Below, piece after piece: positions 15,390 through 63,905 of a stretch of DNA of 64,000 bases. Under the pieces are notes generated by a model. That model was given only the letters and a program-made list of their open reading frames with translations, was not told the DNA's origin and did no database searches. The stretch lies in IMG/VR virus record IMGVR_UViG_3300005253_000050, positions 1 through 64,000 of that record; one strand, written 5' to 3'. Origin of the DNA: a virus. The first letter of the stretch is position 1, and each line of letters opens with the position of its first letter. The position numbers and the translations under genes were made by a program.

Positions 15390-15754
15390 TGCCCGAGGTG
15401 ATCCCCATGGACATGCTGTGCGAGTACATCGGCGCGGTTCCATACGACATCCAGACCGAGGCCCTCCTGCAGCGCGGCATCTCCAACCAACTGATCCGGG
15501 TCGGGATCGAGCACAAGCGGGAGGTCCGCCTGTCGCCCACCGACCGGATCGACTTCATGGTCGGTCTCATCGGGGTGGAAGTGAAAACCAAAGGCAGCCG
15601 CGCCGCACTGATCCGCCAACTCCACCGCTACGCTCAGTCGGGCCTGGTGGACGAGCTGCTAGTGGTGACCACTGTCCCATCCCTCACCCGGGTACCCCGC
15701 GAGCTATGCGGTGTTCCCATCCGCACGCTCGTTCTGTCCGCGTGCCTGCTGTGA
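15389..15754 (+). CDS. PD-(D/E)XK nuclease-like protein, 121 aa
   Basis: The order E..R followed by TDRIDFMVGLIGVEVKTKGS gives the D...E-x-K catalytic core of PD-(D/E)XK nucleases, and RAALIRQLHRYAQSGLVDEL the following helix of VRR/Hjr-type folds. It directly precedes and overlaps the SNF2 helicase gene, so the two may act together on branched DNA; that pairing is inferred from context. Confidence 0.7.
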   Translation: MPEVIPMDMLCEYIGAVPYDIQTEALLQRGISNQLIRVGIEHKREVRLSPTDRIDFMVGLIGVEVKTKGSRAALIRQLHRYAQSGLVDELLVVTTVPSLTRVPRELCGVPIRTLVLSACLL

Positions 15755-18618
15755 AAGCAAGCTACGGACAGATCGAGCTCGCCGGGAAGTTCTGGGTCAT
15801 CCAATGCGAGGCCCACGTCCGGATCCGTTTGAAGCGAGTCTTCGGCGGCGTTCGGAAAAGCGCCTACGACGAAGTCAAGCTGGCCGACTCTCCCGAGACC
15901 TGCCGTGAGCTGCTCTGGTTCTGCGACCGGTACCCCATGGAGATCACCCCGCGCGACTACATGCAGGAGCAGTCGGATCGCCACGAGCGCGAGGAGCAGA
16001 TGGTGTTCGAGATGGTGAGCGGGCACGTGCCGCCGGCGGAGTTCGACCTGGCGCTGCCACTGCGCGACTACCAGCGGATCGCCACCGACCTTGCGCTGAA
16101 GACCGGCGGCCTGCTGGTGGCGGACGACGTCGGTCTCGGAAAGACGGCTTGTGCAATCGGCGTCTTCACGGACCTGCGCACCCTGCCGGCGCTGGTGGTG
16201 ACGCTCACGCACCTCCCGATCCAGTGGCAGCGCGAGCTGAATCGTTTCGCCCCGAAGCTCTCCACCCACATCGTCAAGAAGGGAACGCCGTACGACATCA
16301 AAGGCGGCTGGCCCGACGTCCTGATCATGAACTACCACAAGCTCGCGGGCTGGGCCGACGTGCTAGCAAACCGAGTCCGCTCCGTGGTGTTCGATGAGAT
16401 CCAGGAGCTACGCACCGGTGCCGAGAAAAGCGCCAAGGGTGCGGCGGCCAATCACATCGCTAAGAGCGTCGGGTTCAGGATGGGGCTGAGCGCGACGCCG
16501 ATCTACAACCACGGCTTCGAGATGTTCAACGTGATGGAGTGCGTGCGCCCCGGCGCCCTCGGCCCCGAGCACGAGTTCCGTAATGAGTGGGTGGACAACT
16601 ACGGCCGGGTCAAGGATCCGCAGGCGTTCGGGACCTATCTCCGCGACGCGGGGATGATGCTGCGCCGCACCCGCGAGGACGTCCAGCGGGAGCTGCGGCC
16701 GCTGACCAAGGTGCCGCATTGGATCAGTGCCGACTTCGACGCGATGGACAAGGTCGCGCGCTCCGCGGATGAGCTGGCGCTGGCCATCGTGAACCCGGCG
16801 GATCTGAATCAGAAGGATCAGTTCGGCGCCGAGCGAGAGTTCAACTCGCTGCTGCGCCAGGCGACCGGCGTGGCGAAGGCTCCCTACGTCGCCGAGTTCG
16901 TCCGCATGCTTCTTGACCGCGGCGAGCAGGTGGTTCTGTACGGGTGGCACCGAGTGGTCTACAGCCTATGGCTCGACCGGCTGAAGGACTACCGGCCCGC
17001 GATGTACACCGGCTCGGAGTCTCCGAAGCAAAAGGACGAGGCGATCCAGCGGTTCATGGATCGGGATGCTCGAGTACTCCTGATCTCCCTCCGCTCCGGC
17101 GCGGGGCTCGACGGCCTCCAGCACCACACCCGCACTGTCGTCTTCGGCGAGCTGGACTGGAGCCCCGGCGTACACGAACAGTGTCTGTCCGATGACACCG
17201 AGGTACTTACTCGCAGTGGGTTCTGTGGAAGAGATGACGTTGAAGTCGGAGACGAGATTGCGGCCTTCGACTTGGCCGACAGCAGTATTCGATGGACCCC
17301 GGCGCAGAGCAAGACGGACCGCCCCATGTATGCCGGCGAACGGATGTATGCTGCCGTCACAGAAAAGACAGCGCTGCGGGTAACGGGCGAGCACCGACTT
17401 GTTGTCCGGCGAAGCACTCGCACAACAGAGGGGCGCGGGCGATCACCGTGGGAGATTGTTTTGGCGCAGAGCGTAGCAGGTGCTACGCGGCGATTCATTC
17501 CCACATGTGGATTTGAGGATGCACCAGGAGTAGATCTGACCGACTATGAGCTTCGGCTGATTGGTTGGTTCGTCACCGATGGCAGTTTCAATGGTAGGTT
17601 TGTGACTATTTTTCAGGCGGCCCATCAGCCATGGAACGAAGACCTTGTTGAGGTGCTGGACGGCTGCGACCTCACATGGCACCGCTACACACGACAGAAT
17701 CCAAGCGGTCCAATGAACCTCTACTGCATACCCAAAGGGACGCTTCATCGGTGGTCTAGAAATGAGGTCGACCGACTGCGAGAGATGCTGCGAAACGGGC
17801 TTGGATACAAGGATGTCTCGACTGCGCTGAATCGATCCGCGGCGGCGGTGGGAAAAAAAGCAAGGAAGCTGGAGTCCCATGGAGAGGGGATGCCAGTCGC
17901 CAAGCGAACCGTTCGCGGCTGGTTGCATCTACACGACTACTTGGACAAGGACCTGAGCCCATTATTGGAGCAGATAACTCGCAAGCAACTCATACAACTG
18001 CTGCGTGGAATATACATGGGGGACGGAGCCAAGAGCCCGAAGCTCAAGAACGTCACCCGGATCACTAGCGTCAACAAGCTGTTCATGGACAGACTGCAGT
18101 CGCTCTGTGTCCGGCGTGGATTCTCTGCGACGATATCCCGCCGGAAAGCAAAAACGAGCGCCGGAAATACGGCCTACGATATTTTCATTTCGGAGGCGGC
18201 GGACGCCAGCCTTCCTGGTGCAAACAAACGCAATGGATTTGCTGAATCACCCCGGACTGATCGCGAACGCGTCTGGTGTGTGACGAACGAAATGGGCACT
18301 CTGATCACTCGCCGCAACGGCAAAGTTGCAATCGTAGGAAATTGCATCGGGCGGGTCCACCGCGACGGCCAGCTGGACCCTGTTACTGCCTACTACCTGC
18401 TCGCCGAGGTGGGGGTCGACCCGTTCATGAGCAAGGTCCTCGGAATCAAGCGGACGCAGATCGAGGGCATCAAAGATCCGACGGGCGCAGCCCAGCCCAA
18501 CTACGACGTCGCTGGCGACAGCATCAAGCAGCTGGCCCGGGATTATCTGGAGCAACGCAAGAAGACGAAAGGAACGGAGCATGCAGGCAACTTCGATCGA
18601 GTGGTGTATTTCGACTGA
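15751..18618 (+). CDS. SNF2-family helicase precursor with intein, 955 aa
   Basis: GTG start overlaps the nuclease stop as GTGA; a far upstream in-frame extension is rejected because it runs through that gene in another frame. Helicase motifs: I DDVGLGKTA (residues 125-133), II DEIQE (near 215), III MGLSATPIYN, V LLISLRSGAGLDG, and VI IGRVHRDGQ. Motif VI is interrupted by a 387-aa intein inserted before the cysteine of QCIGR (17182-18342). After splicing the helicase would be 568 aa, a DNA translocase probably used in replication or recombination. Confidence 0.9.
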   Translation: MKASYGQIELAGKFWVIQCEAHVRIRLKRVFGGVRKSAYDEVKLADSPETCRELLWFCDRYPMEITPRDYMQEQSDRHEREEQMVFEMVSGHVPPAEFDLALPLRDYQRIATDLALKTGGLLVADDVGLGKTACAIGVFTDLRTLPALVVTLTHLPIQWQRELNRFAPKLSTHIVKKGTPYDIKGGWPDVLIMNYHKLAGWADVLANRVRSVVFDEIQELRTGAEKSAKGAAANHIAKSVGFRMGLSATPIYNHGFEMFNVMECVRPGALGPEHEFRNEWVDNYGRVKDPQAFGTYLRDAGMMLRRTREDVQRELRPLTKVPHWISADFDAMDKVARSADELALAIVNPADLNQKDQFGAEREFNSLLRQATGVAKAPYVAEFVRMLLDRGEQVVLYGWHRVVYSLWLDRLKDYRPAMYTGSESPKQKDEAIQRFMDRDARVLLISLRSGAGLDGLQHHTRTVVFGELDWSPGVHEQCLSDDTEVLTRSGFCGRDDVEVGDEIAAFDLADSSIRWTPAQSKTDRPMYAGERMYAAVTEKTALRVTGEHRLVVRRSTRTTEGRGRSPWEIVLAQSVAGATRRFIPTCGFEDAPGVDLTDYELRLIGWFVTDGSFNGRFVTIFQAAHQPWNEDLVEVLDGCDLTWHRYTRQNPSGPMNLYCIPKGTLHRWSRNEVDRLREMLRNGLGYKDVSTALNRSAAAVGKKARKLESHGEGMPVAKRTVRGWLHLHDYLDKDLSPLLEQITRKQLIQLLRGIYMGDGAKSPKLKNVTRITSVNKLFMDRLQSLCVRRGFSATISRRKAKTSAGNTAYDIFISEAADASLPGANKRNGFAESPRTDRERVWCVTNEMGTLITRRNGKVAIVGNCIGRVHRDGQLDPVTAYYLLAEVGVDPFMSKVLGIKRTQIEGIKDPTGAAQPNYDVAGDSIKQLARDYLEQRKKTKGTEHAGNFDRVVYFD
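17182..18342 (+). other. Intein with LAGLIDADG homing endonuclease, 387 aa
   Basis: The element begins with Cys in CLSDDTEVLTRSG (block A), has TGEH (block B, residues 68-71) and ends VAIVGN before an extein Cys, the three splice signals. Two endonuclease motifs occur at 126-134 (LIGWFVTDG) and 273-282 (LLRGIYMGDG). Between them lies an HTH-like segment (GYKDVSTALNRSAAAVGKKA) that may bind DNA. The usual penultimate His is Gly here, which occurs in some inteins. Both splicing and homing look intact by sequence. Confidence 0.9.
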
Positions 18619-43295: not shown

Positions 43296-43634
43296 ATGAG
43301 GTATGCCCTGAAGTTGACAGACTTCGCAGGCTATCCACCCGCCACCAATACCGGGTATGCCATACGAAGGACATTGCGAAGGCTAACCGGATCTCCTCTA
43401 TTGCACAGCCGGTCCAGGGCTTGGGTGGCCGACGTCACTGGTGGCACATGGGCATTTGTTAGGCCGGCAGTTGATTATTCGACGATCAACGTTGATGCCG
43501 GGCAAAACGCAGACAAAAACTACTGGCTAATTGATGGCCATGAATACGAGGTGTCAGAACCTACATCATGGAGTGGCGTCGATCGTTATCGGTGCAGGAT
43601 AGAAGACGGAAGGATGGTGAAGATAGATGCCTAA
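43296..43634 (+). CDS. Hypothetical protein, 112 aa, paralog of 42722 gene
   Basis: Starts directly after the previous stop. Shares the RAWV..AVDY..YWL..YEVS..SW..VDRYRC pattern with the 42722 product. Overlaps the PAPS-reductase-like gene by 8 bases, so it is likely part of the same transfer unit. Confidence 0.6.
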   Translation: MRYALKLTDFAGYPPATNTGYAIRRTLRRLTGSPLLHSRSRAWVADVTGGTWAFVRPAVDYSTINVDAGQNADKNYWLIDGHEYEVSEPTSWSGVDRYRCRIEDGRMVKIDA

Positions 43635-44832
43635 GTTAGGATTGGGAATAGACGTCCTAACGGCAGCTCGCGAGCGCACCGCCTGGACGTTCGATACCTT
43701 CCAACGAGTATGCGTGAGCTTCAGCGGCGGCAAGGACTCCTCTGTCATGCTGCACCTTGCGATGGATGAGGCGATCAGGCGAGGGCGTCGGGTGGGCGTG
43801 CTGTTCATCGACCTGGAAGGACAGTACCAACTCACCATCGAGCACATCCAGGAGTGCATGGGCCTTTACGCAGACCACATTGACCCCTACTGGATAGCGC
43901 TCCCGTTGTCCCTCAGAAACGCGGTAAGTGTCTATGAGCCCAAGTGGCAATGCTGGGATCCGGATCGCCGTATCGACTGGATTAGGGAGCCTCCCGCCAA
44001 TGCCGTGACGGATGCTGATAGGTGGCCCTGGTTTGAGCGTGAAATGGAGTTCGAGGAGTTCGTCCCGCTGTTCAACAAGGAGTACTCCCAGGACCAGCTT
44101 ACGGCGTGCCTGGTGGGCATCAGGACGGACGAAAGCCTGAACCGATACAGGACCATCGCCAGCACCAAAAAGCAGAAGTTCGAGGGGCGACAGTGGACCA
44201 CCTACACAGGGGGCACCACCTACAACGTCTACCCGATTTACGACTGGCGAACAGAAGACATCTGGACGTACAACAGCAAGTTCGGCAAGTGCTACAATCG
44301 GCTGTACGACCGGATGCATCAGGCGGGGCTTGGTATTCACCAACAACGTATCTGCCAACCGTACGGGGATGACCAGCGCAAGGGGCTCTGGTTGTTCCAT
44401 ATCATCGAGCCCAAGACGTGGTCGCGTATTGTAGCCAGGGTCAACGGCGCCAACGGCGGTGCCTTATACTCCAAGGACAGCGGCAACATCCAGGGCATGC
44501 GAAAAATTACCTTGCCGCCCGGGCACACGTGGGAATCGTTCGCGAAGATGCTTCTGGCGTCCATGCCCGACAAGACCCGCGACCACTTTGAGGACAAGAT
44601 TGCCGTGTTTCTCCGGTGGTGGCAGTCCCGTGGATACGAGGCAATCCCAGACGAAGCGGACCGTAAACTGGAGTCAAAAAAAGAGGTGCCATCGTGGCGA
44701 AGGATTTGCAAGGCTCTTTTGAGAAACGACTACTGGTGCAAGGGGCTGAGCTTTGGGCAGACGAAGGCCCCGGCATACGAGAACTACAAGCGCATCATGA
44801 AAAAGAGGCGGGCAGCATGGGGGCTGATATGA
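43627..44832 (+). CDS. IbrA-like PAPS-reductase-family protein, 401 aa
   Basis: The ATP-pyrophosphatase loop SGGKDSS (residues 33-39) and VLFIDLEGQYQLTIEHI match the phosphoadenosine-phosphosulfate reductase/DUF3440 group; IYDWRTEDIWTYN and YNRLYDRMHQAGL, RICQPYGDDQR are conserved in IbrA. The next gene encodes an IbrB/ParB-like protein, the usual partner. In known prophages this pair regulates surface-protein genes; here its substrate is unknown. Confidence 0.75.
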   Translation: MPKLGLGIDVLTAARERTAWTFDTFQRVCVSFSGGKDSSVMLHLAMDEAIRRGRRVGVLFIDLEGQYQLTIEHIQECMGLYADHIDPYWIALPLSLRNAVSVYEPKWQCWDPDRRIDWIREPPANAVTDADRWPWFEREMEFEEFVPLFNKEYSQDQLTACLVGIRTDESLNRYRTIASTKKQKFEGRQWTTYTGGTTYNVYPIYDWRTEDIWTYNSKFGKCYNRLYDRMHQAGLGIHQQRICQPYGDDQRKGLWLFHIIEPKTWSRIVARVNGANGGALYSKDSGNIQGMRKITLPPGHTWESFAKMLLASMPDKTRDHFEDKIAVFLRWWQSRGYEAIPDEADRKLESKKEVPSWRRICKALLRNDYWCKGLSFGQTKAPAYENYKRIMKKRRAAWGLI

Positions 44833-47075: not shown

Positions 47076-47386
47076 TGTCCAGCCGCTCACTGGAAGAAAC
47101 GGTCGAGCTGATCAATGCCTGCTACGAGCAACACCGTGAAAATGAGGCGCGCTGGGAGAAAGAGGACCGCATGGACGAAGCCGAACTGCATTATTATCGG
47201 GCAGTTCAATGCATGAACTCGGCCATCGGATCCCTCCGTAGTTCAGCCAAGTGGTGGAGCGATATTGACCAGCTGCTGATGGCTAAGTTCTGTGAAGAAA
47301 AAGCCGTCTCGCTGGAAAACGGCAAGCCGCCGATGCGAGTTGAGTTTGTGCTGGCGGCCGAACTTCTCAAGGAGCAGACCCCATGA
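47075..47386 (+). CDS. Hypothetical helical protein, 103 aa
   Basis: TGATG junction. Charged helices (EETVELINACYEQHRENEAR) throughout. Overlaps the DHH gene as ATGA. Unrecognised. Confidence 0.6.
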   Translation: MSSRSLEETVELINACYEQHRENEARWEKEDRMDEAELHYYRAVQCMNSAIGSLRSSAKWWSDIDQLLMAKFCEEKAVSLENGKPPMRVEFVLAAELLKEQTP

Positions 47387-48288
47387 AAGACACCCGGAGC
47401 AGCAGAGAACCTCTGATCATCCACCACGCGGGGTGCGCGGACGGAATATGCGGCGCGTTGGTTTTGTGGCTCGGGCTGGGCCGTCGCGGGGCACTCCTGC
47501 CGGTTCAGTACGGGGACGCGCCGCCGGACATCAAGACCATCGAGGGCCGCGAGGTGTGGATCGTGGACTTCAGTTATCCACGGGGAATCCTCGAGGACAT
47601 GAACGCCGAGGCGTCGAACATCATGGTGCTTGATCACCACAAAACCGCGGCCGAGAACTGCGAAGGGCTGGACTTCTGCACGTTCGATTCGACCAGGAGC
47701 GGCGCGAAGATCGCCTATGATCTAATGCTTGGGTTGGGGCGTTTGCGTGGAGAGCCTCCCGACCTGGTGGACGTCCTCGGTGTCTTGGTGGCCTACGTGC
47801 AGGATCGGGACCTCTGGACCTGGGAGCTGAAAAACAGCAAGGAGATCTCGGCCTGGCTGGCGAGTTGGCCGCGGACGCTTGAGAGCTGGTACGAGCTGCT
47901 GTGCCGGGTGACCCACCTTGGTTTCGGGCGGATGGTGGGCGAAGGCCAGGCGCTCCTGCGGAACAACGACAACCTGATCAGCTCCATGGCGAAGCAGGCC
48001 GAGGCGGTGGACTGGATCCCGGAGTCCTGCCCGCCGCTGCGGGTGCTGCTGGTCAACAGCCCGGTGCTCCACTCCGAGCTCGCCGCGAAGCTCCTGGCCG
48101 CCCGCGAGTGCGACTTCGTGTGCGTCTGGCGGCGGACCAAGGACAAGTTCGTCTACAACCTGCGCTCGACCACGGTGGACGTGAGCCAGATCGCGCGGGC
48201 ACTCGGTGGGGGCGGGCACGCCAAGGCGGCCGGGTTCTCGAGCCCGTCCCGGCCCGCGCGGTTTTTCGTCACGGCGGAGAAGAGCTAG
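47383..48288 (+). CDS. DHH-family phosphoesterase, 301 aa
   Basis: Motif I HHAGCADGICGA (residues 14-25), IVDFSYPRGI, motif III LDHHKTA (DHH at 84-86) and the C-terminal DHHA1 glycine motif GGGGHAKAAGF are all present. The metal ligands are intact, so a Mn-dependent phosphodiesterase acting on short oligonucleotides or cyclic dinucleotides is expected. A second DHH domain occurs inside the 60048 fusion. Confidence 0.85.
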   Translation: MKDTRSSREPLIIHHAGCADGICGALVLWLGLGRRGALLPVQYGDAPPDIKTIEGREVWIVDFSYPRGILEDMNAEASNIMVLDHHKTAAENCEGLDFCTFDSTRSGAKIAYDLMLGLGRLRGEPPDLVDVLGVLVAYVQDRDLWTWELKNSKEISAWLASWPRTLESWYELLCRVTHLGFGRMVGEGQALLRNNDNLISSMAKQAEAVDWIPESCPPLRVLLVNSPVLHSELAAKLLAARECDFVCVWRRTKDKFVYNLRSTTVDVSQIARALGGGGHAKAAGFSSPSRPARFFVTAEKS

Positions 48289-51273: not shown

Positions 51274-51509
51274 CTCCCGCGGAGCACATCCATGGATCCC
51301 TGACCGCGGCCCTGGCCCTCAGGCTCGCCGGCAAGCCTGGCCGTTCGGCCGCCTTCGTGCTCGCTGCCGCCGTCCCGGTGCTCACGGGCCGGATCGATTG
51401 GGCTGGGGTCCAGGTGGTGGCCTCGGGGTGGCTATCCATGGCCACAGAAAACGTGATAACCTCGGGGCATGCCCAGGCCCCGATCAAAGACCCCCCGCGG
51501 CCACGCTGA
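51270..51509 (+). CDS. Small hydrophobic protein, 79 aa
   Basis: ATGA overlap. Hydrophobic segments SLTAALALRLAG and AAFVLAAAVPVLTG suggest weak membrane association. Its last 41 bases overlap the terminase start. Unrecognised. Confidence 0.5.
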   Translation: MTPAEHIHGSLTAALALRLAGKPGRSAAFVLAAAVPVLTGRIDWAGVQVVASGWLSMATENVITSGHAQAPIKDPPRPR

Positions 51510-53169
51510 TATTTCCCTGCCGACCGTCCCCCCGCCCCAGCTCGCGGACGCCAAGAAGCTGAAAGAGCAGCACGTCGAGGCGGCGCGGGAGGACATCAAC
51601 GCCTTCATCGAGTACGTCTTCGAGCACTACGACAAGAACACGAAAAAGACACGGCCGTTTGTCCAGGGGTGGATGCATAAGCAGTGGCAGGCACTGATGT
51701 CTAACCACTCGAGATTGTTGATAATTGCGCCGAGGAGCCACGGGAAAACCTCGCAATGTATCGCCCGGGCCCTCTACGAGCTCGGTCGCGATCCCAACCA
51801 CCTGATCAAAATCATTTCGCAGAGTGATGCCAAGGCCGTCAAGCGCCTCTCGATGATCCGCGCGCATATGAAGGACAACAAGCGGCTGCACGACGTGTTC
51901 CCGCACCTGAAGCTCGACGAGCTCACCGAGGCCAACAAGCACCAGGTCACCGTGAAGAGATCCGCGCGGATGGCCGACCCGTCCATCGAGGCCCTCGGAA
52001 TCACGAGCAGCGCCTCCGGCGACCGAGCCACGATCCTCCTGGCCGACGACGTGGTGGACCGGCGCAACTCGATCACATTGCCGAAAGTTCGCCAGCAGAT
52101 CAAGGACGCCTGGGACGACTGGGTCAACTTATTGGGAGGCGACGGCGGACAGATTTGGTACATCGCCACCCTCTGGCACCAGGCCGCGCTGACCCACGAC
52201 CTCATGGCCAATCCCGAGTGGGCGGTGGCGTGGTACGAGATTACTAAGGCGATGGGGTGCTACGTCAAGATCCCCGACGGGCGCGAGCACAAGGCCGACT
52301 ATCCGCTCTGGGGGTGGGATCCACAGTGCAAGGTGCACCCGAGCCCCGATGAGTCCGTCCCGGTCGAACCGCCCCCCGAGCCAGCGATGAACAGCGTGAC
52401 GTGCCACTGCGGCCCGTGGACGACGCGCAAGCTGCAGCGTCGCCGCCGCGAGCTGGGCCCGCGGAAGTTCGCCCGCGGGTTTTCCAACCGGCCGATGTCT
52501 GAGGGCGAGTTGAAGATCGACCCTGACTGGATTCGTACCTACACCGAAGAGCCAGGCGACGACTGGTTCTGGTACGTCAGCCTCGACACCGCGGAATCCC
52601 AGGGCCAGCAGGCCGCTTGGACGGGGGTCGTGATTGCGGCAGTGAACCCGGCGAACGGGCACCTGAGAATTTGGGACGCGTTCCACGTCAAGATGAAGTT
52701 TCCCGACCGAGTGAAGCTGGTGATCGATCTCTACAACGAGCACCTTCCGGAGCTGGTCATAATCGAGCGCGCCGGCGGCGGCATCTCGTTGTCGGAGCAT
52801 CTCATCGAAAACACCTCGATCCCGATCTTCGGGATGCCGACGAAGACCAAAGGCGGCCACTCGAAAGATGAGCGCCTGGAGTCGACCACGCCCAGGTTGG
52901 CCAACGGGCAGATCACATTCGCCCCCGAGCTGGATCCCACGGAGGGCCTCGTCGGCCTCGACCGCGGCGACCTGCTCTCGGAGCTGCTCGAGTGGGGATC
53001 CTACCCCACGAAGGACATCGCGGACGCGTTCGCGCATTTGGCGCGCTACTGTGCTATCAAACACCCATGCGCGTGGGACGAGGGCCCCGACGGAGTGCAC
53101 GCCGGGATGAGCCTGGCGAGCCGGCGGGCGCGCGATGACGACTGCATGACCGTTACCCTGATTGGCTGA
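51469..53169 (+). CDS. terL: Terminase large subunit, 566 aa
   Basis: ATPase: Walker A APRSHGKT (87-94), Walker B ILLADDVVD (189-197). Nuclease: YVSLDTAESQG (first Asp near 360), LVIIERAGGGISL and GRDLLSEL-type residues near DRGDLLSELLEW, followed by DIADAFAHLARY with the final Asp. All are in order for a full-length packaging motor, which cuts concatemers and pumps DNA through the portal. Confidence 0.93.
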   Translation: MPRPRSKTPRGHADISLPTVPPPQLADAKKLKEQHVEAAREDINAFIEYVFEHYDKNTKKTRPFVQGWMHKQWQALMSNHSRLLIIAPRSHGKTSQCIARALYELGRDPNHLIKIISQSDAKAVKRLSMIRAHMKDNKRLHDVFPHLKLDELTEANKHQVTVKRSARMADPSIEALGITSSASGDRATILLADDVVDRRNSITLPKVRQQIKDAWDDWVNLLGGDGGQIWYIATLWHQAALTHDLMANPEWAVAWYEITKAMGCYVKIPDGREHKADYPLWGWDPQCKVHPSPDESVPVEPPPEPAMNSVTCHCGPWTTRKLQRRRRELGPRKFARGFSNRPMSEGELKIDPDWIRTYTEEPGDDWFWYVSLDTAESQGQQAAWTGVVIAAVNPANGHLRIWDAFHVKMKFPDRVKLVIDLYNEHLPELVIIERAGGGISLSEHLIENTSIPIFGMPTKTKGGHSKDERLESTTPRLANGQITFAPELDPTEGLVGLDRGDLLSELLEWGSYPTKDIADAFAHLARYCAIKHPCAWDEGPDGVHAGMSLASRRARDDDCMTVTLIG

Positions 53170-56534: not shown

Positions 56535-58337
56535 ATGGCCGCTCAGACGCCCGCACCGCCCGAATCAACAGAACTCACCGTGACGGTGATCAAGGCCGCC
56601 CCGAAGATCGATGTTGACTTCGGTCGGGCCCGGGAGGACGCCGACGAGGTGCAATGGGGACTGAGTTTCCCGCTCCCGCGTCCCTTAGATGTAGATAAAC
56701 TCCTGCTGCTCTTCTCGGTTTCGGATACGCTCCAGCAATGCGTCGACGCAATGGTGTCAAATATTGACGCCAGGGGATGGGCTCCCGAGCCTGTCCTGGA
56801 CCTCGATGCAGACGATGCCGCGGAGCAGGTAGCGACGGCGATGTATCTGGAGCGCCGGTCTCGATCCCCGGCCGCCTCAATGCCGACAGCAGAGGAGGTG
56901 GAGGAGACGCTGAAGGAGTGGCGGCGCGAGGCCCGTCTGGAGAAGGCGCTGCTCAAGCTGCGCGTCAAGGCCCTGTGCTACGAGAGCTCTTTCTCGGAGC
57001 TCCGCCAGCAGAAGCGTCGAGACCGAGAGGTGATCGGGTGGGGGGCCTGGGAAATAATCCGCAGCGACAGCGGCGATATCGTCCGCGCGAAGCACGTCCC
57101 GTCGCGCACACTCTGGCTGACTACGATCGATGACGAGGTCACCGCGACGCCGGCCTGGCTCCCGACGAGCGATGTCAGCCGCGAGGCCGTTATCGTCGAC
57201 CGGCGCTTCCGGCGGGTGATCCAGATCGACAGCGCTGGCGCCTATACCTATTTCAAGTGGTTCGGTGATCCGCGGATCATCTCGGCCAAAAGCGGGAAGC
57301 CCTACGACTCTGAGAAGGACCTCCTCGAGGCTGATGGAGAAGACCACGAGGCCGGCGAGGTCAAGGGTGAGCCCCCGAAGCCGGCGACGGAGATCTTGTG
57401 GTTCGGGACGTACTACCCGGAGGGCGCCTACCCGCAGCCACGGTGGCACGGGCTGATCCCGAACATCGTCGGCAGCCGCGAGGCGTCAGAGGACAACGCC
57501 CGGTACCTGTCGAACTCCGCCATCCCCCAGGGGCTGCTCCTGGTCTCGGACGGGCGGGTCGGCCCCTCGTCGAAGGGCAGCCTGTCGACGTTCTTCGAAT
57601 CGAACGAGGGGAATGCGCGGCAGAAGATCGCCGTGGTGGAGGCCACCACCCCGCGCGAAAACGCGATCCTTCCTGGGTCCGGCCGCGTGCAGCTCGAGTG
57701 GGTGTCGCTGCGGCAGGCCCAGCAGGACGACCTCACCTTCAGCCAGTACATCATGATGACCTCCGACCAGGTGGGCGAGGCCTTCCGCCTGCCGTCGCTG
57801 CTGCGCGGCCGGGTGAAGGACCTGAATAAAGCCAACGCCGTCGCCGTGCTGGAGTTCGCCGAAGACCAGGTGTTCGCCCCGGAGCGCCAGTCCTTCGACG
57901 ACCTCATCAATGACACCCTGGTCGCCAACTGGGGGATCCGGTTCTGGCGCTTCAAGTCCCTCGGCTCTCGCAAGCGGGATCCGGAGTCCATCGCCAAAAT
58001 CGCCGAGGCGTTCCTCCGCGCCGGCGTGGTCACCCCCGCCGAGCTGCGGGATCTTGCCGAGCAGCTGCTGGGTGTCGACCTCCCGAGCTCGGCCAGCGAC
58101 TGGCAGCACATCACTCAGCTGATGGTCACCGCCGGCCACATCCCCCCCTCGGCCAAGCCGCCGGAAACGGTGAGCCAGCCAGTCGGGCCGCCGGCGGATC
58201 CGGATGAATTGCAGGAGCCGCCGACCGGGTCCGCCGAGGACATCGCGAAACGGATCCTCAAGATGGAGGCCTTCCTTGCCACTGCCCGCCAGGCGGAGGC
58301 GATGGCCACGATGCCGGAGCCCGATGGAACTTCTTGA
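56535..58337 (+). CDS. Phage portal protein, 600 aa
   Basis: GGAGG precedes the ATG by 11 bases. Typical portal segments: LLLLFSVSDTLQQCVDAMVS, YLSNSAIPQGLLLVSDG, ALWFGTYYPEG-like TEILWFGTYYPEG, TTPRENAILPGSGRVQLEWV and QLMVTSDQVGEAFRLP-like MTSDQVGEAFRLP, AVAVLEFAEDQVFAPERQSF. The order is that of HK97/PBSX-type portals. The dodecamer forms the DNA gate of the capsid, with the terminase docking on it. Confidence 0.88.
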   Translation: MAAQTPAPPESTELTVTVIKAAPKIDVDFGRAREDADEVQWGLSFPLPRPLDVDKLLLLFSVSDTLQQCVDAMVSNIDARGWAPEPVLDLDADDAAEQVATAMYLERRSRSPAASMPTAEEVEETLKEWRREARLEKALLKLRVKALCYESSFSELRQQKRRDREVIGWGAWEIIRSDSGDIVRAKHVPSRTLWLTTIDDEVTATPAWLPTSDVSREAVIVDRRFRRVIQIDSAGAYTYFKWFGDPRIISAKSGKPYDSEKDLLEADGEDHEAGEVKGEPPKPATEILWFGTYYPEGAYPQPRWHGLIPNIVGSREASEDNARYLSNSAIPQGLLLVSDGRVGPSSKGSLSTFFESNEGNARQKIAVVEATTPRENAILPGSGRVQLEWVSLRQAQQDDLTFSQYIMMTSDQVGEAFRLPSLLRGRVKDLNKANAVAVLEFAEDQVFAPERQSFDDLINDTLVANWGIRFWRFKSLGSRKRDPESIAKIAEAFLRAGVVTPAELRDLAEQLLGVDLPSSASDWQHITQLMVTAGHIPPSAKPPETVSQPVGPPADPDELQEPPTGSAEDIAKRILKMEAFLATARQAEAMATMPEPDGTS

Positions 58338-59667
58338 GCTCCCCAGCCGCGAGGTGCTGGTGCAGCGAGGGCCAAGCGTTGGCTTCGTCGGCCCGTCCAT
58401 GGCCCGCGTCCGCATCCCCAAGGCATCCCAGGCCCAGGGTTACGTGCTGCTCCACCGCGGCGCTCACGGCGCCTGGCAGACGTTCCGCCTGACGTCGCGG
58501 AAGGAGACAGCCGCCAGGAAGCGGGCCGCCCGGGTGGCGCGGCTCATTGGCCGAAAGATTATTCTCGGTGAGCTCGTCCAGGTGGCCGGGGAGACGCAGG
58601 TGATCCGATCCATCGCCACCTACGAAACGATGTCCAAGGCCGAGCTATTCGCCCGAGCTGCAGCTGCGGCCGGCGAGGTGGCGGACATCTACAAGGCCAA
58701 GGATCCGGACCCGTACAACCCCCGGCAGTTCGACAAGATGACGGACGCCCTCGCGCGCGACCTTAACAGGGTGGCCAAGCCGGCGTTTGTAGCCACGGTC
58801 GAGAAGGCCGTGACGTCGTCCAAGATCGACTGGGCCACGGCCACCGAGAAGCAGATGGAGGCCTTCAGCAAAAAGCTCGCCGCAACTCTTGGCGTCTCTG
58901 CCGCTGCGGTCTGGAAATCGATCCGCCCCACGGTGGTTGACTCCTCCGTGACGATGGCCACCGAATCCCGCGCAGCCTTCGTGAAATCGAACAATCTCAC
59001 GGTGGACAGGGTCATCTCGCTCCAGGACAAGGCGGCCGTGACCAGGTCGGCGATGACGAACGCGCACTACGTGCGAGAGTTCGCGACCGGGCAGATGAGC
59101 CCGAGCCTGAGTTCGCAGGCCCGGGTGATCGTCCAGTCTGGAATTAGCAAAGGCGAGAGTTCCCGGATGATCGGGAAGGAGCTCCACCGGGTTCTCGGCC
59201 GGGCGGCCGGCGGCCAGACCGAGGCCTACTTCCGAATGGCTGCGAGCGCGATCAACGCCAGGTCCCGGGAGTTCTCGTCGTTGCGATCCATGCAGGACGC
59301 GGGGATCGATAAATACGAATGGAGCTCGGTGCTCGATGAGATGACCACGGAGACCTGCCGCTTCCTCGACGGCCAGGTATTCTCTGTTCAGGGCGCACTC
59401 GACCGATACAAAGCCGCCGACGCTCTAGAAGACCCCACAGACATCAAATACGAGATGCCGTGGTTCTATGACAAGCCGATCCGCGGCGGCGAGCACGACG
59501 GCAAGATGGGAATCTTTATGAACCAGCGCGGGGGGATGCAGCGTGTCGCTGTGGTTGAAAAAGGTGGCTTCGGGAAACGGGACGCGATCGGCACCTACTC
59601 CAACACCAAAAGCTCAAAGGCGTTGGAGGGAATGGGGATGCCTGCATGTCCAGGGCACAGTTTGTGA
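58324..59667 (+). CDS. MuF-type head morphogenesis protein, 447 aa
   Basis: Overlaps the portal gene by 14 bases. The C-terminal MuF (SPP1 gp7-like) domain shows TEAYFRMAASAINARSREFS, GIDKYEWSSVLDEMTTETCR, FLDGQVF and an end C-P-G-H-S-L. The N-terminal 120 residues (LPSREVLVQRGPSVGFV) are unlike standard MuF proteins. MuF proteins ride in the capsid and are injected; the extra N-terminus may be cargo. Confidence 0.8.
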   Translation: MELLELPSREVLVQRGPSVGFVGPSMARVRIPKASQAQGYVLLHRGAHGAWQTFRLTSRKETAARKRAARVARLIGRKIILGELVQVAGETQVIRSIATYETMSKAELFARAAAAAGEVADIYKAKDPDPYNPRQFDKMTDALARDLNRVAKPAFVATVEKAVTSSKIDWATATEKQMEAFSKKLAATLGVSAAAVWKSIRPTVVDSSVTMATESRAAFVKSNNLTVDRVISLQDKAAVTRSAMTNAHYVREFATGQMSPSLSSQARVIVQSGISKGESSRMIGKELHRVLGRAAGGQTEAYFRMAASAINARSREFSSLRSMQDAGIDKYEWSSVLDEMTTETCRFLDGQVFSVQGALDRYKAADALEDPTDIKYEMPWFYDKPIRGGEHDGKMGIFMNQRGGMQRVAVVEKGGFGKRDAIGTYSNTKSSKALEGMGMPACPGHSL

Positions 59668-59712: not shown

Positions 59713-60051
59713 ATGAGCAACATAATCCAGCCCGGACTCTCGCACCTGATCAGCACCATGGATCTCGCCCGCATCGAGGACGCTGTCCACAAGGCGGTGA
59801 TGCGCTCGGCCGAACTGCGTGGACAAAAGATGTACACCGAGGGCAAGATCTCGCACAGCGAGTACGACCGCCGCGCGAAGTACTGCATCGAGCTCGCGCT
59901 GCGCTGGCGCAAGGAGCGTCGGTTCGCGCTCGAGCAAATCGGCGACGCGCTCAAGACCGCCCTGATCAGCTGGATCGACGGCGATGAATACGAGCCCCGC
60001 GACGGAATGTGGGCCGACCCCGACCAGAACAACCCGGCAGGTACATTATGA
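59713..60051 (+). CDS. Hypothetical head-operon protein, 112 aa
   Basis: Helical and charged (RIEDAVHKAVMRSAELRGQK), lies between MuF and the protease fusion. Unrecognised; a minor capsid or scaffolding-related role is suggested by position only. Confidence 0.6.
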   Translation: MSNIIQPGLSHLISTMDLARIEDAVHKAVMRSAELRGQKMYTEGKISHSEYDRRAKYCIELALRWRKERRFALEQIGDALKTALISWIDGDEYEPRDGMWADPDQNNPAGTL

Positions 60052-63000
60052 GAATCCTGAAGTCCCTCGACCCCCACTACCTGGTGCATCGGCTCGCCTC
60101 CGATCAGATCGTTGGCGTGCTCGCTGACCGCGACCTCGGCGCCCTGGCCGATGACGACATGATGCTGGCAGACGGTGAGGTGGACCCCGACTGTGAGCCT
60201 CTCGCCCATGGCGTGGTGCGGCTCCGGAAGGGCGTGCGGTTTGCCTCTGGCGAGGCGGCCGTCGCCAAGCTCGGCGAGAAGCTCGACCCGTTCATGGCCC
60301 GGACTTTCGGTGCGTCCGCTGACCCGGTGTGGTTCCACCCGCTCAAGTCCGTGGACGCCTGGGAAGAGGCCGCCGTGGTGAAGGGGCTGGAGGTGCCAGT
60401 TCGAATCCTGAAGGCCGCCGAGGTGATTCCGGATGAGGGCGCGCTGAGCGAGCTGAGTTCTGCTGGCCTTGGCGAGGTGGCGAAGCTACTGGACTCGAAT
60501 CCAGAGAGTGAGGGCGCCGAGGAGTTGGCGGTGATCGTGAAGGCCGAGTACGATCGCCGCGGACTCGAGCCCGATGAGTCGCTGCTGATCTTCAAGGGCC
60601 TCTGGGGTTACCCCGCTGGGAAAGCCAGACTGTCGAAGCGATTGGTTGAGATGATGCCAACGCACAAGGTCTACGTTGAACCATTTGTCGGGAGTGGCGC
60701 GGTGCTATTCGCGAAAGAGAAAGTAGGCACCGAGGTTGTGAACGACACCGACCCAGCTGTGGCCGAGGCCTGGCAGGTTCTTTCTGAGTTGACCGCGCAA
60801 GATCTAAAGCGCCTCTGTGGGATGAACTGGACCGGCGATCGTGACACCTTCACGAGAATGAAAAAAGAGACCGGCGGTGACGACGTAGTCAAGCTACATC
60901 GGTTTTTCTATCTCTCTAAATTTGCTTATGGTCGGTGGCGAGGGACTGGATTTTCTCCTGAAATGCAAGGACATACGGTCACAATGGCCCGAATGCTGGA
61001 AAAGAACGCTCCCCGTGCCCAAGGCGTGGTCGCTCTTCATGGTGACTACGAGGCCGTGTGTCGTAAATACGACGGCCCAGACACGTTACACTTCCTCGAT
61101 CCTCCGTACGCTGGATATGCCTCCGCTGTGGGAGAAAAGAACTTCGACGAGGAGCGTTTTTTTAAGATGCTCAAGGAACTCAAAGGGAAGTGGATCGTCA
61201 CATACGGGGTCAAGGGCAAGCTACCCAAGATGCTCCGTGATTCCGGATTTACTGTAAAGAAGGTCACCACCCATCGTTCGATCCGGACGAGCGTCGCCTC
61301 CACGAATCCGTCTGCGGTGCTTGATCAACTGATCGCATACAACTTCGATCCGAATGCCAAGGCCGAAGACCCAGCGCTTGCCCCGACAGAAGAGCCAGCC
61401 GAGGCGCCTGTCGAAGCGGAAAAAAAAAACCTAAATTCCCCGGACGCTGAGAAGCAGGAGGGCTCGCCGGTCCTCTGTTTCTATCACGGCGATCTGGACG
61501 GCGTGGCGTCCGCCGCGGTTGTTCTTCAGGCCCACCCGGCCGCCGAGCTGGCGAGCATCAACTACGGGCAGGAGTTCCCATGGGACACCATCAAGGACCG
61601 CGAGACGGTCTACATGGTGGACTTCGGGATGCAGCCGTTCGAGGAGATGGTCAAGCTCAAGGCCGAACTCGACGAGATGGGGACCAGGTTCGTGTGGATC
61701 GACCACCACATCACCGCGCTCGAGGCCGCAGAGAAGGCGGGCTTCGAGGTCGACGGTCTCCGCGAGATCGGCCAGGCCGGCTGCGAGCTGACATGGAAGT
61801 TCATCCACCCCGACGACCCCATGCCGGAGGTGGTTCGCCTCGCTGGTCGATTCGACGTCTGGGACCACGAGGACCCGAACGTCCTGCCGGTGCACTACGC
61901 GATGGAGGCAATCCCCGAAGCCAACGACCCGAGCAGCGAGTGGTGGGCCGAGTGGCTCAAGAAGGGCGAGGGGGACTTCGCTGAGCTCGTCGCCCAGGGC
62001 AAGGCGATCCAGGGCTGGCTCGAAGAGTTCAGCGCCGGCCGGATGAGGTTCTCGTCCTTCGATGTGGACTTCGCTGGGCTCAAATGCGTGGCGGCCTGCA
62101 CCTCTCTCCCTGGGTCCATTCAATTCGAGTCGGTTGGCAAGGAGCACGACGCCGCGATCTCGTTCTGCTTTTCGCCGAGAAACCAGTGGAACGTCTCGAT
62201 GTATTCCATCAAGGAAGGCGTCGACGTCGGGAAGGTCTGCATGGACAACGGCGGCGGTGGTCACGCTGGCGCCGGCGGGTTCCAGTGCACGGAGCTGCCG
62301 TTCGACCTCCCGGCCTCCACCAAGAAGGCTTACGACCTCCGCGAGCCCCTCGCCGCCTACGCTCACGACGCCTGGTCTCGGTGGATGGATCATCTCTTCG
62401 AGCAGGCATCTCCCGACGGGACGATGGCGCCCGAAGACGTGGAGCGATGGAAGCGCCTGATCACGACCAAGTACGCCGACCTCACCGAGGATGAAAAGGA
62501 GTCCGATCGCCTCGAGGCGGACCGGTTGCTGGCGGTGATGAGCGGGCGGGACGACGAGGTCGAGAAGGCCGCAGTGGCACCGCTTGCCCCGGCCCCGGCG
62601 CTCGCCGTTTTCAAGCCGACCGAGGAGAACTCCTTCGACGACGTGAAGGAGCTGCTCGAGAAGTTCGGGACGGACGAATCACTCGGCGCCGGTGTCGGGG
62701 TCGGGCCGAAGTGGAACGGCCAGCTCGCCATCGTTCACAGCGTACCTGACGGCGTGTCGATCCACTACGAAGGCAACCCCACCGAGCAGGCTCCGAACCT
62801 CAAGGCCATCGCCGCGTCGGCCGCCAAATTCGACGACGGGTATGCTCTCATCGGCGAGGTGGTGGAGGCTGACATCGGCGCGGTGTTCATGGCGCGCGAC
62901 GTGCTCCACTGGGCGGGTGTCGACCACTCGGCCGAGCCGTGGTCTGCGCGACAGAAGATCCTAGACCAGGCGGTCCCGCAGGCGACCGCCGCCATCGCCC

Positions 63001-63905
63001 CCGCCCCCGCTCGGCTGGTTCATTCAGCCGACACTTTGAAGGCCGCGATCACCTGGGCGGCCGAGGTTCCGGGATCCGTCGGGGCGGTGATCACCCCCGC
63101 TGATTCAGTCGCGACGCCAGGTGGATCCGCACCTCAGATTGCCGAGGTTCGGACCCCTCGGATCGTCAACGCGATGGTGGTCGGAGCGGATTCGAATCCG
63201 GATGGATCCAACGTCTATCAGTGCGCCGTCGGGCCGCTTTCGGATTCGGAGTCAGATCGTCTTAAAGAGGTGGTCGAGGTCGGTGGGCGGAACTATGCAA
63301 TCGTCGGATCTGTGTGTACACCTTCTGTGAATGCCTCTGTGGGCGATACACTAAGAGTGGAAGTGGGCGAAATATTGGTGGTTGACAGCGAAGATTCGGC
63401 CGCGATAGGATGGGACTCATCAAAGGTACTCGAGCGGGTGCACGTAAAACCCGCGACGGTATCCGAAGTTCGAGCACTGGCGCGACCACATGAGATCCAG
63501 AAACTCTGCAAAATCCTCAAGCGCGATTCGGAGCGGCATTACATCCTCAGTGTTGTGCTCGAGCCGAACGATGGCAAGGGCGAAGCACCACTGGATCCCG
63601 ACGCCCACAACGATATTTACTCCGACGACGAGATCTGGGATGCCTGCGTGTATTGGTACGAGCAGGGCGCCGGCCTTGGCGTCATGCATGAGCGCGGAGC
63701 GACCACCTCAGAGCTGCTCCCGGTCCACAATATCATCGCCCCGGTCGACATGGAGATCGGCGGCGAGTTTGTGCGGGCTGGTTCGTGGCTCATTGGATCT
63801 CTCGTCCTATCTGCCGACCTCTGGCAGCGGATTGAATCTGGGGAGCTCAACGCGTGGAGCGTTGATGGACGAGCGCTTCGGCGCCCCGAGGCAATAGCAG
63901 CTTGA
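60048..63905 (+). CDS. Giant polyvalent protein: methylase, DHH esterase, ligase-like, XkdF protease, 1285 aa
   Basis: ATGA overlap sets the start. Four modules follow an N-terminal region (1-180): (i) Dam-like adenine methylase at 180-430 with FVGSGAVLFAK (213-223) and DPPY (351-354), GYPAGKARLSKRL; (ii) DHH phosphoesterase at 475-775 with HGDLDG (480-485), DHH (552-554) and GGGGHAGAGGF; (iii) ATP-ligase-like part at 855-1135, GPKWNGQLAIVH (K888) and LIGEVVEADI (E937), then an OB-like strand set; (iv) XkdF-type (S78-like) prohead protease at 1140-1280, with GVMHERG (His1214) and NAWSVDGRA (Ser1271). The whole frame is uninterrupted. Being attached to a head protease, the enzymes would be cut free or packaged in the head. 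Confidence 0.85.
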   Translation: MRILKSLDPHYLVHRLASDQIVGVLADRDLGALADDDMMLADGEVDPDCEPLAHGVVRLRKGVRFASGEAAVAKLGEKLDPFMARTFGASADPVWFHPLKSVDAWEEAAVVKGLEVPVRILKAAEVIPDEGALSELSSAGLGEVAKLLDSNPESEGAEELAVIVKAEYDRRGLEPDESLLIFKGLWGYPAGKARLSKRLVEMMPTHKVYVEPFVGSGAVLFAKEKVGTEVVNDTDPAVAEAWQVLSELTAQDLKRLCGMNWTGDRDTFTRMKKETGGDDVVKLHRFFYLSKFAYGRWRGTGFSPEMQGHTVTMARMLEKNAPRAQGVVALHGDYEAVCRKYDGPDTLHFLDPPYAGYASAVGEKNFDEERFFKMLKELKGKWIVTYGVKGKLPKMLRDSGFTVKKVTTHRSIRTSVASTNPSAVLDQLIAYNFDPNAKAEDPALAPTEEPAEAPVEAEKKNLNSPDAEKQEGSPVLCFYHGDLDGVASAAVVLQAHPAAELASINYGQEFPWDTIKDRETVYMVDFGMQPFEEMVKLKAELDEMGTRFVWIDHHITALEAAEKAGFEVDGLREIGQAGCELTWKFIHPDDPMPEVVRLAGRFDVWDHEDPNVLPVHYAMEAIPEANDPSSEWWAEWLKKGEGDFAELVAQGKAIQGWLEEFSAGRMRFSSFDVDFAGLKCVAACTSLPGSIQFESVGKEHDAAISFCFSPRNQWNVSMYSIKEGVDVGKVCMDNGGGGHAGAGGFQCTELPFDLPASTKKAYDLREPLAAYAHDAWSRWMDHLFEQASPDGTMAPEDVERWKRLITTKYADLTEDEKESDRLEADRLLAVMSGRDDEVEKAAVAPLAPAPALAVFKPTEENSFDDVKELLEKFGTDESLGAGVGVGPKWNGQLAIVHSVPDGVSIHYEGNPTEQAPNLKAIAASAAKFDDGYALIGEVVEADIGAVFMARDVLHWAGVDHSAEPWSARQKILDQAVPQATAAIAPAPARLVHSADTLKAAITWAAEVPGSVGAVITPADSVATPGGSAPQIAEVRTPRIVNAMVVGADSNPDGSNVYQCAVGPLSDSESDRLKEVVEVGGRNYAIVGSVCTPSVNASVGDTLRVEVGEILVVDSEDSAAIGWDSSKVLERVHVKPATVSEVRALARPHEIQKLCKILKRDSERHYILSVVLEPNDGKGEAPLDPDAHNDIYSDDEIWDACVYWYEQGAGLGVMHERGATTSELLPVHNIIAPVDMEIGGEFVRAGSWLIGSLVLSADLWQRIESGELNAWSVDGRALRRPEAIAA

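Follow-up and report, generated by a model that had tools for sequence, protein, structure and literature searches.

A phage head-gene fusion joining a predicted adenine methylase, a DHH phosphoesterase, a RyR domain and a ligase-derived region to an XkdF-type prohead protease

Why should a phage prohead protease form the end of a giant polypeptide whose preceding parts resemble a DNA methylase, a phosphoesterase and a DNA ligase? The question is raised by a gene at 60048-63905 on the plus strand of the IMG/VR virus record IMGVR_UViG_3300005253_000050, of which positions 1 to 64,000 were analyzed (the window, i.e. the whole stretch of 64,000 nucleotides). The gene is a single open reading frame (ORF) of 1285 amino acids (aa) with an ATG start and no internal stops. 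Its start is backed by an ATGA overlap with an upstream 112-aa gene (59713-60051), and its end by the downstream gene, which starts at 63902 and overlaps it by TTGA. Both overlaps recur, there each as ATGA, in an independent metagenomic phage contig (IMGVR_UViG_3300009488_001899, hereafter L001), which encodes a homolog of 1354 aa spanning residues 1-1285 of the fusion at 68% identity and with an identical domain order. From the N- to the C-terminus this order is an N-terminal region, a D12 methylase, a DHH-DHHA1 module, a RyR/R12 domain, a degenerate ligase-like region and an XkdF protease. Since L001 covers the entire chain with the same domain order the fusion is not an assembly chimera, and a chance frame or a frameshift is likewise ruled out as its origin by this end-to-end homolog. 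Thus, the uninterrupted frame reported in the original prediction, which had been made from the sequence alone, is borne out by the open-frame check, the gene overlaps and the homolog. The one large difference between the two proteins is a segment of ~60 residues between the methylase and DHH modules; the additional segment in L001 (L001 2249-2540, WSTAFQNDLPDSSFLYIEPGG...IARIPQS) has no family match beyond E 0.025.

Three of the modules possess intact active-site motifs of their respective families. The methylase is recovered by the MethyltransfD12 profile (1.1e-15, 58.5 bits against a Pfam cut-off of 22) and by PHROG 56 and 13242, and matches PDB 7m6b (2.4e-13), with which its S-adenosylmethionine-binding EPFVGSGAV and catalytic LDPPY motifs align; it is predicted to be an active D12-type N6-adenine methylase. 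The DHH domain scores below the Pfam cut-off of 28.1 bits in the window (E 1.1e-5, 26.2 bits) and attains 29.0 bits in L001, while the DHH-DHHA1 region as a whole matches phrog_4771 at 9.6e-36. The metal- and substrate-binding motifs that such enzymes require (HxDxDG, D, DHH and GGGGH) are present in the fusion, with H480, D484, D525, D552-H553-H554 and GGGGH739 kept in 4/4 aligned sequences, and phosphoesterase activity is predicted. A stand-alone DHH-DHHA1 protein of 301 aa is also encoded at 47383-48288 (+; phrog_4771, E 4e-61), giving the phage two proteins of this family. Residues 1141-1285 are identified as an XkdF head protease by the Peptidase_S78_2 profile (1.2e-16, 61.3 bits against a cut-off of 24; 58.3 bits in L001); the catalytic H1214 and S1271, together with D1185, are invariant in 9/9 XkdF sequences, and cleavage of head proteins is predicted. 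The profile matches and motifs hence agree with the earlier view that a Dam-like adenine methylase, a DHH phosphoesterase and an XkdF protease are combined in one chain.

Between the fusion and L001 the ratio of nonsynonymous to synonymous substitution rates (dN/dS) is 0.16-0.22 in the N-terminal region, the methylase, the DHH module and the protease, indicating purifying selection on the latter three. One might instead regard the chain as a product of neutral accretion, in which decaying genes were strung together with no coordinated function except that of the protease. The clear degeneracy of the ligase-like region would fit such a history, as would the rarity of the family, for which one other member was found in IMG/VR. 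However, the methylase, DHH and protease segments combine intact motifs with dN/dS values of 0.16-0.21, and the whole architecture is kept at 68% identity, leaving this explanation scarcely credible.

The count of four enzymes in the original prediction does not hold, as a fifth domain, of the RyR/R12 (ryanodine-receptor-like) type, was overlooked at residues ~754-838. The Pfam match to RyR is weak in the whole-chain search (residues 760-832, E 0.086; 9.5e-4 in L001), and the single-sequence scores against PF02026 (19.5 bits for the window, 24.2 for L001) lie below the cut-off of 27.4 bits. Members of this RyR subfamily are encoded at 61 viral-contig loci, L001 included, mostly in ORFs of their own that are about 75-210 aa long. 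A profile was built from 37 sequences, the window sequence itself among them, 25 of which match Pfam RyR; H773, W776, W779, L812 and D820 are invariant across the alignment. Against PDB this profile recovered the ryanodine receptors RyR1, 2 and 3 (6uhi 4.9e-9, 6uag 1e-4, 3nrt 2e-4), and it matches the window at 6.4e-29, as expected for one of its own members. An AlphaFold model based on 35 sequences is a four-helix domain with a pLDDT (predicted local distance difference test) of 86.5, and the top 28 Foldseek matches of this model in PDB are all ryanodine receptors, with probabilities of up to 0.98, though at E-values of 0.2-2 for this small domain. Profile and predicted fold together identify this segment as an RyR/R12 domain.

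Sixty further phage contigs (L102-L161) carry the same subfamily, including two with long products (L112, 502 aa; L120, 442 aa) that hold partner regions besides the RyR domain. On MT835687 (L093) a caspase-like protein (381-1463, PADLOC caspase 1.3e-17) is followed directly by a 92-aa member of the subfamily (1465-1743), which is possibly a cellular defense context.

The RyR domain lends support to the earlier guess that the protein is directed against NAD- or cyclic-nucleotide-based defense. A May 2026 preprint reports that phage R12 proteins hydrolyze (RyDEP) or sequester 2'/3'-cyclic ADP-ribose (cADPR), defeating Thoeris (PMC13232231). The window domain shares the R12/RyR fold with RyDEP, and by motif spacing RyDEP H75, W78 and D117 appear to correspond to H773, W776 and D820, all three of which are invariant in the 37 sequences. 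Unlike RyDEP, for which a stand-alone early gene in a NARP1 operon is described (PMC13232231), the window domain sits inside a structural fusion. By analogy, cADPR binding is a good guess for the function of this domain; hydrolysis is a weaker guess, and less likely than binding.

The ligase-like region presents the opposite combination of evident ancestry and eroded motifs. Single-sequence Pfam ligase matches are sub-threshold (0.03 for the window segment, 0.0016 for L001), but hhalign against seven bacterial ATP-dependent ligases gave a probability of 94.4% (E 8.6e-8, 188 columns), with four unrelated control alignments yielding probabilities of <0.4%; by profile comparison the region is a true homolog of these ligases. 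The position of the motif I lysine (K888) is kept in the window and L001, where motif I reads KWNGQL and KWSGEV, respectively, in place of KxDGxR. In the same order, motif III is IGE and VGD in place of DGE, and motif IV is VGAVIT and EGAVIT in place of EG..K; the lysine of motif V is absent. The region is also the fastest-evolving segment of the protein (44% identity, dN/dS 0.53). This erosion of the catalytic motifs makes strand sealing unlikely. Hence, of the ligase proposed originally the homology stands, whereas the sealing activity falls with the loss of most catalytic residues. The region is most likely a ligase-derived domain devoid of sealing activity, which may bind nucleotides or DNA, or serve as a structural spacer. 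An AlphaFold model from the two available sequences (pLDDT 33; top Foldseek match T4 RNA ligase, probability 0.72) was discarded along with its matches.

These features also bear on the possibility that the fusion is a DNA-metabolism module for genome maturation in the head, wherein the methylase would mark DNA at packaging, the DHH domain would trim or scavenge short oligonucleotides in a RecJ/NrnA-like manner, and the ligase-like part would sense nicks or ends. Three of the modules do come from families able to act on nucleic acid, and the ligase homology is real, with the K888 position kept in both sequences. However, the eroded motifs and rapid evolution of the ligase-like region, the lack of a known nucleic-acid role for RyR domains, whose best-studied phage relatives bind cADPR, and the presence of the stand-alone DHH protein, which could cover housekeeping, render such a role quite improbable.

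The genomic context places the fusion among virion genes. It belongs to a head-gene operon comprising terminase, portal, MuF, the 112-aa gene, the fusion, a scaffold-like gene and a major-head-protein-like gene (phrog_1623, 5e-57), the last of which lies beyond the window. The location of the protease between portal/MuF and scaffold/major head protein genes is that typical of its family. The gene had been described as directly downstream of portal and MuF; it indeed lies in this cluster, but the 112-aa gene intervenes between MuF and the fusion. In the 93.6-kb record, which is possibly a fragment, S78_2 is matched only in the fusion, and neither a second XkdF nor an S78 protease was detected. 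With no other such protease detected in the record, the fusion presumably must be taken into procapsids.

This would not apply if internal initiation at an in-frame GTG (63438) yielded a separate XkdF protease of ~155 aa, in which case the long chain would act mainly as an effector and its fusion to the head would be partial. The GTG lies at a domain border and is common to the window and L001, a promoter-like match is found at 63382-63411, and stand-alone XkdF proteins of 156-178 aa are present in Pakpunavirus. However, there is no clear ribosome-binding site near this GTG, and the number of promoter-like matches is close to that expected by chance (3 found, 1.1 expected, standard deviation 1.0). 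Moreover, synonymous conservation shows no significant excess there: the best 20-codon window (19/20) is matched in 438/2000 shuffles and is located elsewhere. We accordingly consider internal initiation very improbable.

Our preferred reading, which we hold tentatively and at a little less than even chances, is that the fusion is a head-maturation protease with a counter-defense cargo ahead of it, which would be carried into the head, freed, and partly injected to counter restriction and signal-based immunity. Head proteases enter procapsid cores. The C-terminal XkdF domain would take the ~140-kDa chain into the procapsid core late in infection, and maturation proteolysis might then free the modules, perhaps at the Ala/Pro-rich linkers 442-470 and 839-859. 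Some modules would stay behind in the finished head and be delivered along with the DNA into the next host. There, the methylase could protect the DNA against restriction as it arrives, the RyR domain could bind or hydrolyze the cADPR immune signals of Thoeris, and the DHH domain could cleave signals that are cyclic or short oligonucleotides, or the products of such signals. Phage DHH phosphodiesterases have been proposed as counters to nucleotide-signal immunity (PMC7824862). In T4, Alt and the internal proteins are directed into the same core as the protease, where they undergo cleavage, and they are retained, Alt and IPI at full copy number (PMC9026906); P1 DarB and the polyvalent proteins offer precedents for virion-borne effectors (PMC5512222). 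The initial suggestion that the protein would be packaged into virions and act on entry is plausible. T4 Alt/IPI and P1 DarB resemble our proposal in procapsid core entry, cleavage, injection and action at entry, but have their own targeting segments, separate from the protease gene (PMC9026906, PMC5512222), whereas in the fusion the protease domain itself would be the targeting unit. The more specific claim, that virion-borne RyR, DHH and methylase modules enter with the DNA and neutralize restriction and nucleotide-signal immunity, including Thoeris, before phage gene expression, appears somewhat unlikely.

Several observations weigh against virion delivery or its proposed targets. During maturation the T4 protease is reduced from 72 to 3 copies (PMC9026906), implying that cargo linked to a protease need not be retained. 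Among eight tested RyDEP homologs six bound the signal and none hydrolyzed it (PMC13232231). The window subfamily is distant from these tested proteins, the position of the RyDEP phosphate contact H100 is R803 in the window by the above motif-spacing mapping, and the RyR segment shows a dN/dS of 0.51 between the fusion and L001. In the cultured-phage collection, the subfamily was confined to Microcystis phages and a single faecal contig. The genome shows no avoidance of GATC (670 sites observed against 683 expected), so that a Dam-type restriction pressure is not visible.

The main rival to virion delivery is that the modules are released, and act, in the cell that produces them. Here, the fusion would be a polyprotein cut by XkdF or a host protease, with the protease going to the head and the methylase, DHH and RyR modules acting in the cytoplasm of the infected cell itself, where they might, for instance, methylate progeny DNA before packaging and clear immune signals late in infection. 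Flexible Ala/Pro-rich linkers part the modules, with linker 442-470 only 48% identical between the fusion and L001, and members of this RyR subfamily also occur as stand-alone genes in phages, implying that the activity needs no packaging. Furthermore, signal cleavage by RyDEP is detected from 1.5 h post infection, i.e. with early-to-mid expression (PMC13232231). On the other hand, enzymes needed early are ill placed in a late structural gene, and cytoplasmic action needs no head-core fusion; the arrangement is also kept across two diverged phages. We therefore see this alternative as unlikely. If the fused cargo is instead retained and injected, immune-signal-degrading domains would be pre-made and ready before the first transcript. 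This would link head maturation with anti-Thoeris and anti-restriction biology, and point to a natural route for loading proteins into capsids via the protease. The RyR subfamily (60 phage contigs, mostly environmental) offers a ready set for telling cADPR cleavers from sequesterers.

The original prediction knew of no such combination of domains, which is an overstatement. A fusion of a D12 methylase with XkdF already exists, by profile comparison, as PHROG 13242 (450 positions, function unannotated), which matches the methylase at 24-283 and then the protease at 308-430 (349.8 bits in total). Unlike the fusion, this family, as judged from its profile, has no space for the DHH, RyR and ligase-like modules or for the 180-aa N-terminal region, for which a PHROGs search gave no family match. 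When methylase and protease were joined into one query, none of the 50,697 phage and 72,556 plasmid records covered 80% or more of it. PHROG 13242, searched in 397 genomes of one phylum and in 399 of a second, recovered mostly ordinary Dam-type genes, along with a single protease fragment located where a contig ends. The DHH-RyR-pseudoligase insert between methylase and XkdF was found in the fusion and L001 only: a search of viral contigs for full-length relatives with domain-specific and hand-made patterns returned L001 alone, and a scan of genome contigs with a hand-made pattern gave no true relatives. The family is thus very rare.

Pakpunavirus and Rhizobium phage entries labeled 'DNA methyltransferase' or 'DNA methyltransferase/prohead protease' in GenBank were rejected as prior fusions, their ORFs being only about 155-210 aa. 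These mislabeled XkdF proteases occur in Pakpunavirus CAb02 (label in the RefSeq copy NC_042113) and Rhizobium phages RHph_I4 and RHph_TM16 (L008, L011 and L012); the labels probably stem from transfer from PHROG 1530. The XkdF/S78_2 proteases of PBSX, Pakpunavirus and Dulem virus 37 share the catalytic residues and gene position of the fusion, but are 150-410 aa long and without enzyme cargo.

Like the polyvalent proteins (Iyer et al. 2017, PMC5512222), the fusion unites several functionally different domains in a large multi-enzyme chain encoded with virion genes, among those for portal and MuF; a DNA adenine methylase module is found in both, and nucleotide-signal phosphoesterases have been proposed for the former. 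Polyvalent-protein methylases, in contrast, pair with SWI2/SNF2 modules, with MPTase, MuF and ART domains as hubs, and a text search of the same paper returned no fusion involving DHH, a DNA ligase or an S78/XkdF prohead protease.

Table 1. Coordinates of the head-gene region and of the modules of the fusion
Feature	Coordinates	Strand	Evidence
Terminase large subunit	51469..53169	+	phrog_38 E=2.2e-67
Portal protein	56535..58337	+	phrog_12 E=1.2e-19; Pfam Phage_portal 8e-7
MuF-type minor head protein (true start probably near 58324)	58204..59667	+	Phage_Mu_F 2.6e-6; phrog_13868 4e-33
112-aa gene without assigned function, between MuF and fusion	59713..60051	+	overlap kept in L001
Giant fusion gene, 1285 aa	60048..63905	+	
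N-terminal region, residues 1-180	60048..60587	+	conserved in L001 (73% identity)
Predicted D12-class N6-adenine DNA methylase, residues 181-441	60588..61370	+	Pfam, phrog_13242, PDB 7m6b
Predicted DHH-DHHA1 phosphoesterase, residues 471-753	61458..62306	+	phrog_4771, Pfam DHH/DHHA1, motif alignment
Predicted RyR/R12 domain, residues ~754-838	62307..62561	+	profile, fold, 37-relative alignment
Degenerate ATP-dependent-ligase nucleotidyltransferase region, residues 860-1010	62625..63077	+	hhalign; weak Pfam DNA_ligase_A_M
Last part of the ligase homology, with eroded motifs IV/V, and a putative OB-like region, residues 1011-1140	63078..63467	+	
Predicted XkdF (S78_2) prohead protease, residues 1141-1285	63468..63902	+	Pfam, phrog_3017, alignment
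Next gene, 274 aa, likely scaffold-like	63902..~64726 (window ends 64000)	+	phrog_13975 3.7e-4

Elsewhere in the window, a protein combining a PAPS-reductase with DUF3440 is encoded at 43627-44832 (+) and shows weak DndC-like similarity. An SNF2-type helicase at 15418-18618 (+) is split by what appears to be an intein; this insertion has a LAGLIDADG motif, starts with CLSDDTEVLTRSGF and ends with AIVGN before a cysteine.

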